64,000 nt of DNA, taken from assembly GCA_016795505.1 (NCBI GenBank), contig JAEUHH010000065.1, forward strand, positions 1 to 64,000, given 5' to 3'. Below are positions 10,586 to 59,155 of this stretch, in pieces. Numbering within the stretch: position 1 is the first letter of the stretch; the number at the start of each line of letters is the position of its first letter. Position numbers and translations under genes: made by a program. The notes under the pieces are model-generated. The model was not told the DNA's origin, searched no databases, and saw only the letters and a list, made by a program, of their open reading frames with translations. Source of the DNA: Verrucomicrobiales bacterium. GTDB lineage: Bacteria > Verrucomicrobiota > Verrucomicrobiia > Verrucomicrobiales > DEV007.

Positions 10586-10645
10586 GGGCGATTGGGGGGT
10601 GGGAGCGGGAAGGTGACGGCGAATGTCGGTCGAACAGGGTTCGAT

Positions 10646-10691
10646 CTCCGATCAAACAGGGTTCCATCGGAGGAGCAACCCTGTTCCATCG
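10646..10691 (+). repeat. 46-bp palindromic element, copy A (intergenic)
   Basis: Copy of the 46-bp family, starting CTCCGAT and ending ATCG. The cores ACAGGGT and ACCCTGT are in opposite orientation and can pair across the central GGAGGAG. Read in the family frame it would give LRSNRVPSEEQPCSI. An additional half-site lies just before it (about 10632-10645). It lies between gspG and the next leftward gene, where it could also affect the operon leader. Apart from this element the 10586-10819 gap shows nothing. Confidence 0.85.
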
Positions 10692-14338: not shown

Positions 14339-14384
14339 TTCCGATGAAAGAGGGTCTTATCGCCGATGAGACAGGGTTTGATCG
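14339..14384. repeat. 46-bp palindromic element, copy B (intergenic)
   Basis: Begins TTCCGAT and ends ATCG, 14 nt after the kinase stop. The cores are GAGGGTC and ACAGGGT in the same orientation, with CGCCGATGAGA as centre instead of GATCGGAGA. The plus-strand family frame has a stop, but the minus strand reads RSNPVSSAIRPSFI, again like the in-gene copies. Confidence 0.8.
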
Positions 14385-21955: not shown

Positions 21956-22001
21956 GACCGATGCAACCGGGTTGGATCGGAGACGAGACAGGGTTGAATC
22001 A
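21956..22001 (+). repeat. 46-bp palindromic element, copy C (intergenic)
   Basis: Begins GACCGAT, with cores ACCGGGT and ACAGGGT in the same orientation around GATCGGAGACG, ending AATCA. In the family frame it reads DRCNRVGSETRQG then a stop. It is the only feature I can name in the 950-bp gap 21536-22489; the rest holds AT/GC-mixed sequence with no supported gene. Confidence 0.8.
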
Positions 22002-30784: not shown

Positions 30785-31375
30785 GGCCAAAGGCCCGGCC
30801 GCACCATAGCCTGAGGCAACGCCTCAGGGATCGGCCCGGCAAACTCAGATCCATGCGCGCAGACGCATGGATCGGTCGTTGGAACGACAATTCCATGCGC
30901 GCAGACGCATGTATCGGTCAAACAATCGACAATTCCATGCGCTCAGACGCATGTATTGGCCAAACAATCGACAATTCCATGCGCGCAGACGCATGTATTG
31001 GTCAAACAATCGACAATTCCATGCGCGCAGACGCATGTATTGGCCAAACAATCGACAATTCCATGCGCGCAGACGCATGTATCGGCCAAACAATTGACTA
31101 TTCCATGCGCGCAGACGCATGTATTGGCCAAACAATCGGCCGTTCCAGGCGCGCAGACGCATCCATTTCCCGCGATTTCACGCGCTGAACATTCGCGAAC
31201 CAGCGGCCTCGGCCCCTACCGATCGCCCCGGCAGAGGGAAATCCCAGAGCCAAAGGCCCGGCCGCACCGTAGCCTGAGACAACGCCCCAGAGATCGCCCT
31301 AGCCGAGGAAAACCCAGGGCCAAAGGCCCGGCCGCACCGTAGCCTGGGGCAACGCCCCAGGAATCGGCCCGGGGC
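30785..31375. repeat. Three copies of a ~57-bp hairpin repeat (GGCCAAAGGCCCGGCCGCACC)
   Basis: Units beginning GGCCAAAGGCCCGGCC appear at about 30785, 31249 and 31319. Each contains CGCACCRTAGCCTGRGGCAAC (R = A or G; the middle copy reads GAGAC in place of GRGGC) and a palindrome such as CTGAGGCAACGCCTCAG or CTGGGGCAACGCCCCAG. The palindrome arms change together in the first and third copies. Non-coding; typical of interspersed hairpin repeats in this type of genome. Confidence 0.65.
30848..31166. repeat. 42-bp tandem repeat array, about 7.5 units
   Basis: Units start at 30852, 30894, 30936, 30978, 31020, 31062, 31104 and 31146, exactly 42 bp apart. Each carries the hairpin CATGCG-CGCAGA-CGCATG followed by TATTGGCCAAACAATCGACA. 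The first unit has perfect 10-bp arms GATCCATGCG/CGCATGGATC. There are no spacers, so it is not a CRISPR array. Because 42 is divisible by 3 the array is open in several frames (for example MRADACIGQTIDNS repeated), but the absence of a credible start region and the hairpin suggest a DNA- or RNA-level structure. Confidence 0.85.
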
Positions 31376-31560
31376 CAGGGCCCCGTTGGCTGAAAGCCAA
31401 CATCACCCGCCGACCCCCGCCCACGATGAAGTGCCGCGGCATCACATACCGCCGCTGGCGAATGTCCACCACCATCCCCCCGGGCCGTCCGCGTCCGCGT
31501 CCCCGTCGGCCCCCGGCTCGCCCTGGCGCGGGGGCGGAACCTGATCCGACCGGGTATGTC

Positions 31561-31628
31561 TTCCGATCGTACCGGGTTGGATCGGAGAAGCGACCGGGTT
31601 GGATCGGAGAGACAACCCGGTTCGATCG
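31561..31628 (+). repeat. Tandem 46-bp palindromic elements, copy D (intergenic)
   Basis: A full element (31561-31606) runs into a second half-site up to about 31628. The cores are ACCGGGT, ACCGGGT and ACCCGGT, so the last can pair with the earlier ones. The family frame reads FRSYRVGSEKRPGWIGETT without a stop. A G/C change to the core (CCGG in place of CAGG) is present in all three halves, which suggests internal duplication. Confidence 0.85.
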
Positions 31629-32130
31629 CGAGCGGGTGTGTCGAAAAAGAAGGCCAAAAGAGGGAGCCGGAGGCTTCCCGGAAATCAGCCGGTGGCGATA
31701 GCCACCGGATACCGGCCACCCTGACGAGAACGCCCCGGCAGGGGCGGCGGAACGGCATCGGGGGCGGCCGATCACGGCCCGGCGGCCTCTTGTTGGCGCC
31801 CCATCCGGGGCGCTCGTGGTTTTTGGGACGGATACCGGTGGCTGTCGCCACCGGCTCATATCCGTCGAGCCTCCGGCTCGAAAGCCGGGAAAGTGGAACT
31901 CAACGGCCTGCCCGCCCGACGGTCGCGCTCGATCGCGTGACTATTTCGATCAGACCCGGTTCGATCGCGAGCGGCTGCGTCGAGAAAGAAGGCCAAAAGA
32001 GGGAGCCGGAGGCTTCCCGGAAATCAGCCGGTGGCGACAGCCACCGGATACCGGCCCGCCCTGACGAGACCGCCCCGGCAGGGGCGGCGGAACGGCATCG
32101 GGGGCGGCCGCTCACGGCCCGGCGGCTCTT
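31616..32130. repeat. Long direct repeat (31616-31791 and 31955-32130)
   Basis: Two segments of about 176 bp are nearly identical and start at a half-site of the 46-bp family (CCCGGTTCGATCGCGAGCGG). Inside are hairpins CCGGTGGC-GAYA-GCCACCGG and CGCCCC-GGCA-GGGGCG. A third CCGGTGGC/GCCACCGG hairpin with the loop TGTC lies between them near 31836-31855. The whole interval 30665-32389 appears non-coding, with repeats filling most of it. Confidence 0.75.
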
Positions 32131-32389
32131 GAAATGGCGGCATGCGCCCCTCTCCGCCGCCGCATGCCGCGTCCGCCTCGCTCGCTCAGGAGCGGGTTCC
32201 CGTCGTCCTGAGGCCGTGATATCCGAAAGGGAATGGTGGAACGAAGTCAGCCGTTCCGCCTGACCCGATAGATGCACTCCCACTGGGGAAATCCTTGTCA
32301 GGACGGGGATTCATGGGCATTCTGCCCTTGGATCGTCAGGTGGATATCACTGGGGGCGGTCATACGAAAAGCACTGTTCGCTCTAGAAA

Positions 32390-35308: not shown

Positions 35309-35895
35309 ATGCCTCGTTTCGACCCGATTCCGAAGCCGATGATCCCCGGCTGCACTGGCTCGCCCAGCAGGGTGCCGAGGGCCTGCTCGATGGTCGGGAG
35401 GCGCGGGAACTGTCCGAGTGGCTGGCCCGGTCGGAGTCGGCGAGGCACATTTTTGCCGGCTATTGCCAGCTGCTGGTGGCGCTGGAGTGCGAGCCCTGGC
35501 TGGAGGAGGCCATGATGGAACCCGATTGGCCGGAAAATGTGGTGCCGCTGCCCGGGGTGGCCATGGGGCGGCTGGAAATGCCCGCGCCGGCCTCGTCCGC
35601 AGGTGCGGTGGGACAGGGCCTGAATTCCTGGCGCCGCATGGCCGCGGTGGCGGCGATCGCCGTGCTGACGGGGCTCCTCATCGGCGGGGCGACCGGGTGG
35701 CCTTTCCGATCAGACAGGGTTGGATCGGAGAGGCAACCCTCTTCCATCGTCACGGCGGGGATGCTGTCGGCGGGGATGCCGGGGGCGTTTCCCAAGGGGC
35801 CGGGTGAGCCCGGCAGCCCGATCACGCTGGCATCGCTGGGCGACGAGCCGAGGCCGCTGCTGGCGTCCCAGTGCGTGCAGTGTCACCGATTTTGA
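35305..35895 (+). CDS. Putative anti-sigma/FecR-like membrane partner, shortened, carrying a 46-bp element insert
   Basis: 196 residues. The cytoplasmic N-terminal region (HWLAQQGAEGLLDGREAREL and a ZAS-like spacing without clear Cys) is followed by a membrane segment at about 111-128 (AAVAAIAVLTGLLIGGATG). Directly after the membrane segment, residues 134-149 are encoded by the 46-bp element (FRSDRVGSERQPSSI). The protein then ends early with SQCVQCHRF and a stop. FecR/LamG partners of these sigma factors usually have a long periplasmic domain, which is missing here, so the gene may be truncated. The CVQCH motif at the very end looks like a haem-c site but is probably not functional. Confidence 0.7.
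   Translation: MNASFRPDSEADDPRLHWLAQQGAEGLLDGREARELSEWLARSESARHIFAGYCQLLVALECEPWLEEAMMEPDWPENVVPLPGVAMGRLEMPAPASSAGAVGQGLNSWRRMAAVAAIAVLTGLLIGGATGWPFRSDRVGSERQPSSIVTAGMLSAGMPGAFPKGPGEPGSPITLASLGDEPRPLLASQCVQCHRF
35704..35749 (+). repeat. 46-bp palindromic element, copy F, inside the anti-sigma-like gene
   Basis: Starts TTCCGAT, ends ATCG. The arms ACAGGGTTG (35714-35722) and CAACCCTCT (35734-35742) pair except for one base, around GATCGGAGAGG. It begins exactly on a codon boundary (35305+399), as do the copies in menE and der. Confidence 0.9.
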
Positions 35896-50193: not shown

Positions 50194-51269
50194 ACGATCC
50201 GGCTTACTGGGAAAGCCAGACGCCCGATTTCCGATGCAACCCTGTTGGATCGGAGAAGCAACAGGGTTTGATCGAATCGGCGCGCACCGATCCGCGCCTC
50301 GCCGGGCATGTTCTGGTGGCGACGTCGGGTTCGACCGGGGAGCCGAAGTGGATCGCCCTGTCAAAAGCCGCCCTGCTCACCTCCGCCCGCGCGGTCAATG
50401 CCCATCTCGGCGCGACGGCGGAGGACCGCTGGCTGTGCGCCCTGCCAGCGCATCATGTGGGCGGTTTGGGCGTGTTTGCGAGGGCTTATGCAATCGGGCA
50501 ACCGGCCGTGGTCTTTTCCGGGCGCTGGCGGGATCGGGCGGCCGAATTCGTTGCCCTCTGCGGGGAGGCGGGCATCACGCTCACGTCGGTGACGCCCACT
50601 CAGGTTTACGATCTGGTGGCGGAGCGACTGGGTGCGCCCGATTCATTACGGGCCGTCATCGTTGGAGGCGGCCGGTTGGAGCCGGATCTGGCCCGCGCGG
50701 CGCGGGATCTCGGATGGCTGGTGCTGGCGAGCTACGGCATGACCGAGGCGTGCTCGCAGATTGCCACCGGGCCAGGTGACGACGGCTGGTTGCCGGTGCT
50801 GCCCCACTGGGAGGTGGCGGCTAGTGAATCGGGCCGGCTGCGTCTGCGCGGTCCATCGCTGTTCTCGGGCACGGTGGATGCCACGGGGCGTTTCGAGGCG
50901 GCCCGACTCGCCGCCGATGGTTGGTTCGAGACCCGCGACCGGGTGGAGCTGCGGGATGGCGAGCTGAGGTTCCTCGGCAGGATCGACGACTGGGTGAAGA
51001 AGCTCGGGGAACTCGTCTCACTCGACGACGCGCGGCGGCGGCTCGATATGCTGGCGAGGGCGGCGGGCCTTTCGGCCACGGTGATCGCGGTGCCGGATGC
51101 GCGGCTGGAGCACCGGTTGGTGGCGGTGTTCGAGGGCACGGTGGACCCGGATCTCGTGGCGCTTTTCAATGCCGGTGCCGAGCCCTACGCCCGCCTCGAT
51201 GAGGCCCGCGCGGTGCCGGCTTTTCCCCGGACCGAGCTTGGCAAGATCGCCTGGTCGCGACTCACGTGA
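50175..51269 (+). CDS. menE: o-succinylbenzoate-CoA ligase MenE, with a 46-bp element insert near the N-terminus
   Basis: 364 residues. AMP-binding enzyme: VATSGSTGEPKWIALSKAAL (P-loop), ASYGMTEACSQIA, DGWFETRDRVEL (hinge Asp), FLGRIDDWVKKLGELVSLDD and the C-terminal catalytic Lys in RTELGKIAWSRL. It activates o-succinylbenzoate with ATP and CoA. Residues 19-34 (FRCNPVGSEKQQGLI...) come from the 46-bp element at 50229-50274 and form an insertion before the P-loop. The rest is normal, so the enzyme is probably active. Overlaps menC by 19 nt. Confidence 0.9.
   Translation: MEATDLNDPAYWESQTPDFRCNPVGSEKQQGLIESARTDPRLAGHVLVATSGSTGEPKWIALSKAALLTSARAVNAHLGATAEDRWLCALPAHHVGGLGVFARAYAIGQPAVVFSGRWRDRAAEFVALCGEAGITLTSVTPTQVYDLVAERLGAPDSLRAVIVGGGRLEPDLARAARDLGWLVLASYGMTEACSQIATGPGDDGWLPVLPHWEVAASESGRLRLRGPSLFSGTVDATGRFEAARLAADGWFETRDRVELRDGELRFLGRIDDWVKKLGELVSLDDARRRLDMLARAAGLSATVIAVPDARLEHRLVAVFEGTVDPDLVALFNAGAEPYARLDEARAVPAFPRTELGKIAWSRLT
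50229..50274 (+). repeat. 46-bp palindromic element, copy G, inside menE
   Basis: Starts TTCCGAT at a codon boundary (50175+54) and ends ATCG. The arms AACCCTGTTG and CAACAGGGTT are perfectly complementary around GATCGGAGAAG; compared with the copy in the sigma-partner gene both arms have been exchanged (core inverted), so the hairpin is kept. Confidence 0.92.
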
Positions 51270-54430: not shown

Positions 54431-56026
54431 TCACGGCGTCGAGCGACGGCCTTTCGGCTTGCGGGCGGGAGCCTTGCGATTGGCGGGCGTCTTGCGTTTG
54501 GCTGCCCCGGCTTTCTTGGCGCGGGCCTGGAACTTCGACTTCGGCTTGTCGGTGTCATCGCGCTTTTCCCGGGCCTTCACGGTGAACACAAAGGGCAGGC
54601 CCTCCATCGGATAGGTCTCGCGGATCTTCGTCTCCAGGTAGCGCTGGTAGGTGCGCGTCAGCAGGTCCGCGTGATTCACAAACAGCAGATACTCGGGGAC
54701 TGGCACGGTGCGGGGGCGGTCATCCCGTTTCTGAGTCGCGTAGAGCAGCTTGAGCCGCTTGCCGCCTTTCATCGGCGGGGGATTCACCTCGATGGCTTCG
54801 CGGAGCAGGCGATTCAGCACGCCGGTCGAAGCCGGAGTCTCGGAGGCCTGGCGAACCCGCTCGACCGCTTTGAAGATCATCCCGAGGAACTCGCGTTCCT
54901 TTGCCGAGACCGCCACCTTGGGCGCGTAGTCGAGGTAGAACAGGGCGTCGCCCGTCTCCTCGAGGAATTGCTCCACCCGGTCGTGGAAGCGCGATCCCGG
55001 ATGATAGAGGTCGAACTTGTTCAGCACGATCACGCAGGGCTTGTTCTCGTCGAGGATGGTCCGCGTGATGCGCCGGTCCTGGGCGACGACTCCGGTCGAG
55101 GCGTCGAGCACCATCAGTACGATGTCGGCCCGGCGGATGCTGCGCTCGGTCCGCATCGCGCTGAACACTTCCACCGACGTGTCCATCTGCTGACGGCGTC
55201 GCAGGCCGGCGGTGTCGATGAGGATGTAGTCCTGTCCGTCGCGGCTGTAGGGAATGTCCACCGCGTCGCGGGTCGTCCCGGCGACATTGCTCACGATGGT
55301 GCGGTCGTCATTGAGGATGGCATTGACCAGCGACGATTTCCCGACATTCGGCCGGCCGACGATCGCGATGTGACAGGGTCTGGTCTCCGATGCAACAGGG
55401 TTGGATCGGCTTTCGTCACTGTCGTCATCGTCATCCGCCCCGGCGTCGGTGTCGTCGGATGCCGCTGCGGAGGCGGGAGCGATGCGGCTTAGCTCGATGT
55501 CGATCCGCCGATCCAACACGTCGAAATTCCGCCCGTGAGCGGCGCTGAGGGGAATGGCATTGCCGAAGCCGAATTCGGAGAACTCCACCGCATGGGCATC
55601 GGTGCGGGCAGTGTCGGCCTTGTTGGCGATGATCACGACGCGCCGGGCGCTGCGGCGCAGCACCGAGGCGAGGTCGCGGTCGATCGGCGTGATGCCATCG
55701 CGCGCATCGACAGTGAAGAGGATGAGGTCCGCCGTCTCGATGGCGATGTCTGCCTCGGTCCTGACCTGGGCGGCAAAGCCATCGTCGAGGGTGGCGCCGA
55801 TGCCCCCCGTGTCGGTGAGTTCATAGGCGATGCGGCCGGCTGGCCGGCATTCCGACGCAATGCGGTCGCGCGTCACGCCGGGCTGATCGTGAACGATCGA
55901 GATGGGCCGCCCGACGAGGCGGTTGAAAATGGCGGATTTGCCGACATTCGGACGACCGACGATGGCGACGCGGGGCAGGGAAGGGGAAGACACCGCGGAA
56001 GGTACGCTCCGACCGGGGCCAGACAA
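54431..56026 (-). CDS. der: Ribosome-assembly GTPase Der (EngA), with a 46-bp element insert between its two GTPase domains
   Basis: 531 residues. First G domain: RVAIVGRPNVGKSAIFNRL, DTGG, NKAD. Second: HIAIVGRPNVGKSSLVNAIL, DTAGL, NKFD. A KH-like C-terminal domain and an extra basic tail (KKAGAAKRKTPANRKAPARK) follow. Der matures the 50S subunit and is essential in most bacteria. The linker between the G domains is acidic (DDTDAGADDDDDSDE) and runs into residues 206-221, SRSNPVASETRPCHI, encoded by the 46-bp element; its last codons provide the first residues of the second G domain. The gene remains open and presumably functional. Confidence 0.96.
   Translation of the reverse strand: MSGPGRSVPSAVSSPSLPRVAIVGRPNVGKSAIFNRLVGRPISIVHDQPGVTRDRIASECRPAGRIAYELTDTGGIGATLDDGFAAQVRTEADIAIETADLILFTVDARDGITPIDRDLASVLRRSARRVVIIANKADTARTDAHAVEFSEFGFGNAIPLSAAHGRNFDVLDRRIDIELSRIAPASAAASDDTDAGADDDDDSDESRSNPVASETRPCHIAIVGRPNVGKSSLVNAILNDDRTIVSNVAGTTRDAVDIPYSRDGQDYILIDTAGLRRRQQMDTSVEVFSAMRTERSIRRADIVLMVLDASTGVVAQDRRITRTILDENKPCVIVLNKFDLYHPGSRFHDRVEQFLEETGDALFYLDYAPKVAVSAKEREFLGMIFKAVERVRQASETPASTGVLNRLLREAIEVNPPPMKGGKRLKLLYATQKRDDRPRTVPVPEYLLFVNHADLLTRTYQRYLETKIRETYPMEGLPFVFTVKAREKRDDTDKPKSKFQARAKKAGAAKRKTPANRKAPARKPKGRRSTP
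55366..55411 (-). repeat. 46-bp palindromic element, copy H, inside der
   Basis: On the minus strand it begins AGCCGAT and ends ATCG. The cores are ACCCTGT and ACCCTGT in the same orientation, with GCATCGGAGACC between; here the two halves are direct, not inverted. The element starts on a codon boundary (56026-615). Confidence 0.88.
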
Positions 56027-56539: not shown

Positions 56540-56585
56540 CGGCGATGAGACCCTCTTTGATCGCCGATGAGACAGGGTATCATCG
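56540..56585. repeat. 46-bp palindromic element, copy I (intergenic)
   Basis: Starts CGGCGAT and ends ATCG; cores ACCCTCT and ACAGGGT face each other around TTGATCGCCGATGAG. It lies 41 bp after the end (on the plus strand, before) of the leftward gene 56626-57312. Confidence 0.8.
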
Positions 56586-58440: not shown

Positions 58441-58950
58441 TCACCAGGCGGACCGGGCCAGCGTCGGCTCCGGCTCAGGGGAGTCGAGTTCGCGGAGGCA
58501 GGTGGCGATGGGGCGCGTCTCGCCCGGCAGCACGAGGCCTGGGCGGATCGCGGCGAGCGGGGTGAGGACAAAGCGGCGGCTCAGCAGGCGGGGATGGGGC
58601 AGATCGAGCCGGTCATCGGCCAGCACGCGGTCGCCGAGGTAAAGCAGGTCGACATCGATGGTCCGCGGGGCGTTTTTGGGCCGACGGCTGGCTCGCCCGA
58701 GGTCGCGCTCGATGCTCTGGGCGGCCTCCAACAGGTCGAGCGGCTCCAGGGAGCTGTGCAATTCGATCACGGCATTGAAAAAAGGCGCCGTTCCCGGCGC
58801 ACAATCGACCGGTTCGGTCTCAAAAAGCGGCGAAACGAGGAAATCGGCCGCCGTGCCTTCGTGCAAATCCAGCAAGCGGTCGCGGGCGATGCGCAAGTGC
58901 CCGAGTCGGTCACCAAGATTCGAGCCAAGGGCGATGCCGGCGGGGAGCAT
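58441..58950 (-). CDS. folK: HPPK, 2-amino-4-hydroxy-6-hydroxymethyldihydropteridine diphosphokinase
   Basis: 169 residues from the ATG at 58950. IALGSNLGDRLGHL, ERDLGRASRRPKNAPRTIDV followed by DLLYLGDRV, and LPHPRLLSRRFVLTPLAAI are the conserved HPPK blocks, including the pyrophosphoryl-transfer Asp pair. It makes the pterin precursor of folate. The start is set just after a heptamer satellite at 58961, so the upstream leader is unusual. Confidence 0.93.
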   Translation of the reverse strand: MLPAGIALGSNLGDRLGHLRIARDRLLDLHEGTAADFLVSPLFETEPVDCAPGTAPFFNAVIELHSSLEPLDLLEAAQSIERDLGRASRRPKNAPRTIDVDLLYLGDRVLADDRLDLPHPRLLSRRFVLTPLAAIRPGLVLPGETRPIATCLRELDSPEPEPTLARSAW

Positions 58951-58960
58951 GGGTGGAGCT

Positions 58961-59155
58961 GTGAAGAGTGAAGAGTGAAGAGTGAAGAGTGGGGAGTGAA
59001 GAGTGGGGAGTGAAGAGTGGGGAGTGAAGAGTGGGGAGTTAGTTTTAGAAGTAGTGAAAATGTAAGTGATAAAAGCGATTGATAGGAGTATCAATTTTGG
59101 CGTTCTCTTTCTATCTCGGACTCTTCACTTTTTACTTTTTACTTTTTACTTTTTG
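58961..59155. repeat. Heptamer simple-sequence repeats (GTGAAGA / GTGGGGA and TTTTTAC)
   Basis: 58961-59039 is a run of 7-bp units (GTGAAGA and GTGGGGA alternating), and 59125-59155 is a run of TTTTTAC units. They are related in reverse: AAAAAGT and GAAGAGT steps on the minus strand. They fill the gap between folK and dapB, where slippage could occur. AT-rich sequence (59040-59110) separates the two. Confidence 0.8.

Follow-up and report, generated by a model that had tools for sequence, protein, structure and literature searches.

The window analysed here (64,000 nucleotides in all) belongs to G000, a Verrucomicrobiales MAG of 6.55 Mb in 120 contigs, and carries a der (engA) gene whose product has two tandem GTPase domains and matches the TIGR03594 profile at 464 bits, above the cut-off of 306.7. 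The codons at 55366-55411 read ...SRSNPVASETRPCHI and are placed between an acidic linker and the second GTPase domain, which they join, ending in CAC-ATC (His-Ile), so that an earlier description of this stretch is confirmed from the codons. The same earlier note took the stretch for a palindromic insert. A real repeat does lie there, in frame and in the linker, but it is neither a clean insert nor a single palindrome, consisting instead of two direct 19-bp units at an offset of 22 bp, each a pair of inverted 8-bp half-sites about a 3-bp centre. Read along the plus strand, the der element is GATGTGAC-AGG-GTCTGGTC-TCC-GATGCAAC-AGG-GTTGGATC, and its two units both fit the general pattern GANNNNAC..GTNNNNTC without a mismatch. 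When the window was searched for repeats, the element fell into a family (D2) with copies at about 10.6, 14.3, 22.0, 31.5, 35.7, 50.2, 55.4 and 56.5 kb, which are collected in Table 1 with the other features. The ~800-bp repeat that holds one of the arrays occurs in three places, and one copy differs by one unit.

Table 1. Elements of the repeat family in the window, their host gene der and other repeats.
Position	Strand	Feature	Remark
10628-10690		Three-unit element	Intergenic
14343-14383		Two-unit element	Intergenic
21960-22000		Two-unit element	Intergenic
30808-31209		Tandem repeat (D1)	Seven copies, 42-bp period
31400-32200		~800-bp repeat	Holds an element array; copies at C17 and C78 are 92-94% identical
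31543-31627		Four-unit array	Within the ~800-bp repeat of 31400-32200
31948-31966		Single unit	Belongs to the ~800-bp repeat of the 31543-31627 array
35708-35748		Two-unit element	Within a weakly predicted ORF
50233-50273		Two-unit element	Close to where an ORF is predicted to start
54434-56026	-	der (engA), ribosome biogenesis GTPase	Hosts an element in its inter-domain linker
55367-55407	-	Two-unit element within der	Matches the genome-wide consensus
55367-55385		der element, unit 1	Distal half overlaps the Pro-Cys-His-Ile codons
55389-55407		der element, unit 2	Exact match, G000 dialect
56544-56584		Two-unit element	In the divergent gap 5' of der; distance to the der copy 1.2 kb
58947-59039		Tandem GTGAAGAGT/GTGGGGAGT repeat (D4)	14-bp period

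The unit of 19 bp follows GAT-S-NN-AC-MGG-GT-NN-S-ATC (with its flank, TTTCC-GATSNNAC-MGG-GTNNSATC) and comprises inverted 8-bp half-sites, GATSNNAC in G000, around an asymmetric 3-bp centre, which was AGG in 83 and CGG in 19 of 104 units. The G, A, T, A and C of the half-site are nearly invariant, the three positions between them vary, and arrays are often framed by TTTCC...GGAAA. In 428 kb of G000 we counted 53 clusters, 39 with two units and nine with three, and neighbouring units stood at an offset of 22 bp, which is two helical turns, in 62 of 63 cases. Complementarity between the half-sites of a unit was not above that of shuffles (113 vs 127 ± 8), and first and second units were alike in direct orientation (P about 0.0015). 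A reading of the units as hairpins or terminators was dropped because the arms show no covariation. Taken together, the likeness of the units and the missing covariation fit recognition of the site as duplex DNA and duplication of units, not a hairpin.

Genome-wide, the unit GATNNNACMGGGTNNNATC has 416 exact matches per strand in G000 (832 in total over 6.55 Mb), and the reversed unit pattern has none. With a two-unit detector (20 scored positions, at most four mismatches), 1.61 Mb of G000 yielded 177 arrays and the reversed sequence none, which puts the two-unit form far above the chance level. The 164 gaps between arrays, which represent 1.61 of the 6.55 Mb, had a mean of 8.9 kb and a coefficient of variation (CV) of 0.525, where uniform placement gave 0.954 ± 0.066. 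The idea that even spacing is a by-product of intergenic preference was dropped, as gene-aware nulls in which each array keeps its intergenic or genic class still gave a CV of 0.94 (0.936 ± 0.065); under them 44-45 gaps shorter than 3 kb are expected, against six observed. In three further species, each with a dialect of its own, the sites are evenly spaced too, with CVs of 0.30 in G003, 0.58 in G013 and 0.43 in G063 and nulls of 0.91-0.95. The der copy does not fill a gap, its neighbouring element at 56.5 kb being only 1.2 kb off. Per-contig counts revealed no consistent link between the orientation of the asymmetric centre and GC skew, used here with respect to replication. GC tended to fall as element-free gaps lengthened (Spearman -0.245, P=0.0016), and the longest gaps, on G000 contigs C55, C98 and C51, are possibly acquired DNA.

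The range of the element is narrow. Among 289 genomes of the order, most of the genomes compared being draft MAGs, the two-unit GANNNNACNNNGTNNNNTC at 22 bp occurred only in genera g1, g2 and g11 of one family (481 matches in G000, 98 in G001, 65 in G003, 117 in G013, 227 in G085, 193 in G063 and 170 in G055), and several species of genus g2 had few or no matches. Among 387 genomes sampled across the phylum no genome but G000 had the pattern, and reversed-pattern controls were zero in both surveys. The outer bases of the half-sites differ by species (GATS in G000, GACY in G003, GAAN in G013, and a right half of GTACARTC in G063), and the AC-AGG-GT core is constant across these dialects. Literature searches for the motif, or for a comparable verrucomicrobial element, returned nothing relevant. 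Two occurrences stand apart. One is a 113-kb contig of a genus-g2 genome (G050 contig C14, L128-L130) that has the dialect of G000 together with G000-like element density and GC, for which binning contamination is the probable explanation. The other is viral: in scans of viral sequences the element was found on one contig only, IMGVR_UViG_3300035698_019880 (L153:4678-4718), where a two-unit element in a genus-g2-like dialect lies within a phage ORF adjoining a tape measure gene.

Within predicted genes lay 44 of the 177 arrays, an upper estimate since four-mismatch matches are doubtful (those in mid-gene, of which one falls in the motif of DNA polymerase I, may have arisen by chance or be coding sequence that has adapted). 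About 75% lay outside, though 89% of the sequence is coding as called with a simple home-made hexamer finder, for which start sites and short genes are approximate. Array density was highest in convergent gaps, and among the genes flanking long arrays no common family was noticed. Arrays in mid-gene were two-unit in 28 of 30 cases, compared with 100 of 147 elsewhere, as expected if reading frame matters, given that the canonical element of 51 bp amounts to 17 codons. Several mid-gene copies fall between Pfam domains (after the OB fold in DnaE, at residue 411 of a beta-lactamase/NamZ fusion and at residue 637 of a PSCyt2/PSD1 protein), and in-gene copies are read in other frames in other genes. 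Some elements, such as that at 56545, overlap predicted start codons and give N-termini like MRPSLIADETG or MIRPCLIAL. Elements also adjoin dnaN (sliding clamp) and a dinB-like polymerase gene (G000:C88:43966 and C9:144618), which, alongside the copy in dnaE, may be coincidence.

The genes der and dnaE are both essential, and comparison of the two across relatives bears on how sites are gained and kept. In nine species from three genera (G000, G001, G002, G055, G057, G063, G065, G085 and G013), dnaE, identified with Pfam as encoding DNA polymerase III alpha, has an element in the linker that follows the OB fold. Each copy uses the local dialect. QG and TG residues line up in most of them, and the copies in G013, G065 and G001 are degenerate; the site is absent from G064, G021 and G004 and from genera without the system in this dnaE comparison. 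Judged from these alignments, the dnaE site appears to be ancestral. Near orthologous gene ends, an element stood in G000 in 7 of the 24 cases with one in G013 and in 8 of the 140 without (odds ratio 6.8, P=0.0018), a figure that common long intergenic regions may inflate, whereas the dnaE case is independent of intergenic length. The nearest genomes are too diverged for intergenic alignment of empty and filled sites.

The Der linker is hypervariable, with length and sequence differing among all family relatives compared. It is not an identical and ancestral segment: the full element is absent from the linkers of the same-genus species G001-G003, and two species of genus g11, G013 and G085, have an element in the Der linker too, elsewhere in it and farther from the second domain. 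These latter copies probably point, from the alignments, to repeated gain in a permissive linker. Comparison with relatives gave no clean insertion junction. The last third of the G000 element (ACCCTGTCACATCGCGATCGTCGG) aligns with ACCCTGTCGCATCGCGATCGTCGG of the element-less der of same-genus G002, the Pro-Cys codons (CCC-TGT) are present in the der of G003 too, and the Pro-Cys-His-Ile codons of unit 1 are thus partly common, as Pro-Cys-x-Ile, to element-less der genes of the genus. The der element is not a clean insert because part of it is sequence common to element-less orthologues; with its last third shared in this way, it either developed out of a half-match already present or has degenerated in the sister species. 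Of the two options named in the earlier note, tolerance of the insert or a function for it, tolerance holds up, the linker being variable in all relatives compared. A role specific to Der does not, the element being one of hundreds that are mostly intergenic, with others in different genes. Thus the initial observation is right in substance, and its Der-centred reading is too narrow.

We think it probable that the der stretch is one site in a chromosome-wide set of paired palindromic sites bound by a putative lineage-specific DNA-binding protein. This reading starts from what was observed directly, namely the repeat and its anatomy, the even spacing, the three-genus limit, the dialects, the maintenance of the dnaE site and the lack of hairpin covariation. 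The putative protein would read the sites as double-stranded DNA, with one dimer per unit and, from the geometry, a pair of neighbouring dimers on the same face of the helix. The density of sites would be held near one per 8-9 kb, and close neighbours, less than about 3 kb apart, would be disfavoured, with selection or drive presumably upholding the spacing; drive by a copying process could mimic selection. Within genes, sites would be accepted in linkers or at termini, mostly in the two-unit form, and the inter-domain linker of Der would be such a place. A bolder form of the idea, which we doubt slightly more than we believe, is that the paired sites form a chromosome-wide ruler of ~8-9 kb whose outer bases, those of sites in essential genes, dnaE among them, included, were all rewritten in concert when their recogniser changed.

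As to what such a protein might do, our leading guesses are chromosome architecture and DNA uptake or self-recognition, each of which would be a more specific version of the explanation we prefer. Under the first, the sites would anchor an architectural or segregation protein, one per loop or domain of 8-9 kb. Even spacing, the exclusion zone of ~3 kb, helical-turn periodicity, symmetric half-sites and a position mostly outside genes all agree with this, but confinement to three genera and rapid change of dialect would be unusual for a core architectural protein, and several genus-g2 species have few or no matches; we regard this role as possible, without being probable.

Under the second, a surface or pilus receptor would prefer element-bearing DNA, and biased uptake followed by recombination would produce the regular density and the dialects. 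Hundreds of copies, a lineage limit and a constant core with dialects are in its favour, and long gaps of lower GC would be expected if newly acquired DNA comes without sites. The element resembles uptake sequences in being over-represented genome-wide with species dialects and in being more evenly spaced than random; in the Neisseriaceae the dialects share a core (PMC3630211), and significant even spacing of uptake sequences has been noted (PMC1939737). The architecture differs, however. Uptake sequences are short, high-density motifs of 9-12 bp that are often coding, and those of the Neisseriaceae occur in 2,000-6,000 copies (PMC3630211), whereas the present element is a palindromic pair of 41 bp, found about once per 9 kb and mostly extragenic. 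We consider the uptake role unlikely, if still a serious contender.

The element might instead be a miniature mobile element with target immunity, of which Der took one in-frame insertion. Copies are dispersed, paralogous 800-bp repeats have gained or lost a unit, one copy lies in a phage ORF, target immunity could yield regular spacing, and a length divisible into whole codons would suit insertion in frame. Against this, variation is confined to particular positions and does not resemble random decay, no target-site duplication was seen, the dnaE site has stayed put in nine species while the dialect changed, and the der copy overlaps sequence common to element-less relatives, so that we judge such an origin improbable.

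Spread as REP/BIME elements by RAYT (Y1) transposases would account for palindromic doublets that are small, number in the hundreds, lie mostly between genes and are enriched in convergent gaps, and GTAG REPs have been reported from O. terrae, a member of the Verrucomicrobia (PMC3733652). REPs are defined by a GTAG or CGTC tag at one end (PMC3733652), but the consensus here has no such tag, and stem covariation is missing. Nor do Y1_Tnp counts follow the element, with none in G055 and one weak match in G085, both rich in elements, against 36, 28 and 18 in element-free G006, G023 and G011; in G000, an element lies no more than 1.5 kb from three of eight Y1 loci, roughly as many as its density predicts. 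On all three counts (stem covariation, tag and Y1 association) we disfavour this reading as very improbable. That the peptide was selected for a function of Der, which its reading frame and its position next to the second GTPase domain might suggest, is next to negligible as a prospect, the same DNA being mostly non-coding elsewhere and read in other frames in other genes, and Der proteins of the same genus being without the peptide.

If our preferred reading of a bound, chromosome-wide set of sites is true, the element would amount to a self-recognition code of a new kind or to a system that organises the chromosome, and would be a natural example of a joint shift in specificity at hundreds of sites. 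Evenly spaced, co-evolving families of sites are rare, and the function of the known ones, the uptake sequences, has long been debated. There is also a warning for annotators, namely that an unusual peptide in an essential protein can be a DNA-level signal running across the gene.

As a lineage-specific, evenly spaced and co-evolving family of paired palindromic sites, the repeat is unusual, and it departs from each of the known systems with which it can be compared. With REP/BIME elements it shares small palindromic doublets in hundreds, intergenic bias, a preference for convergent gaps and species variants, but differs in having neither stem covariation nor a GTAG/CGTC tag, in its even spacing and in being untracked by Y1 counts. 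Miniature inverted-repeat elements with target immunity are, as generally understood, likewise dispersed and short with occasional copies in genes; here, in contrast, no target-site duplication was seen and sites are kept in place under dialect change. The sites of matS (MatP), Noc and SlmA are short, palindromic and chromosomal and are recognised as duplex DNA, as is proposed here; they are, however, single sites in tens of copies, some confined to one region of the chromosome, whereas here there are hundreds of paired sites and a recogniser that is only putative. The Neisseriaceae DUS and Pasteurellaceae USS are alike in their many copies, more even than random, their restriction to lineages and their invariant core with dialects, and the present element differs from them in its paired palindromic units of 19 bp, 22 bp apart and mostly extragenic.
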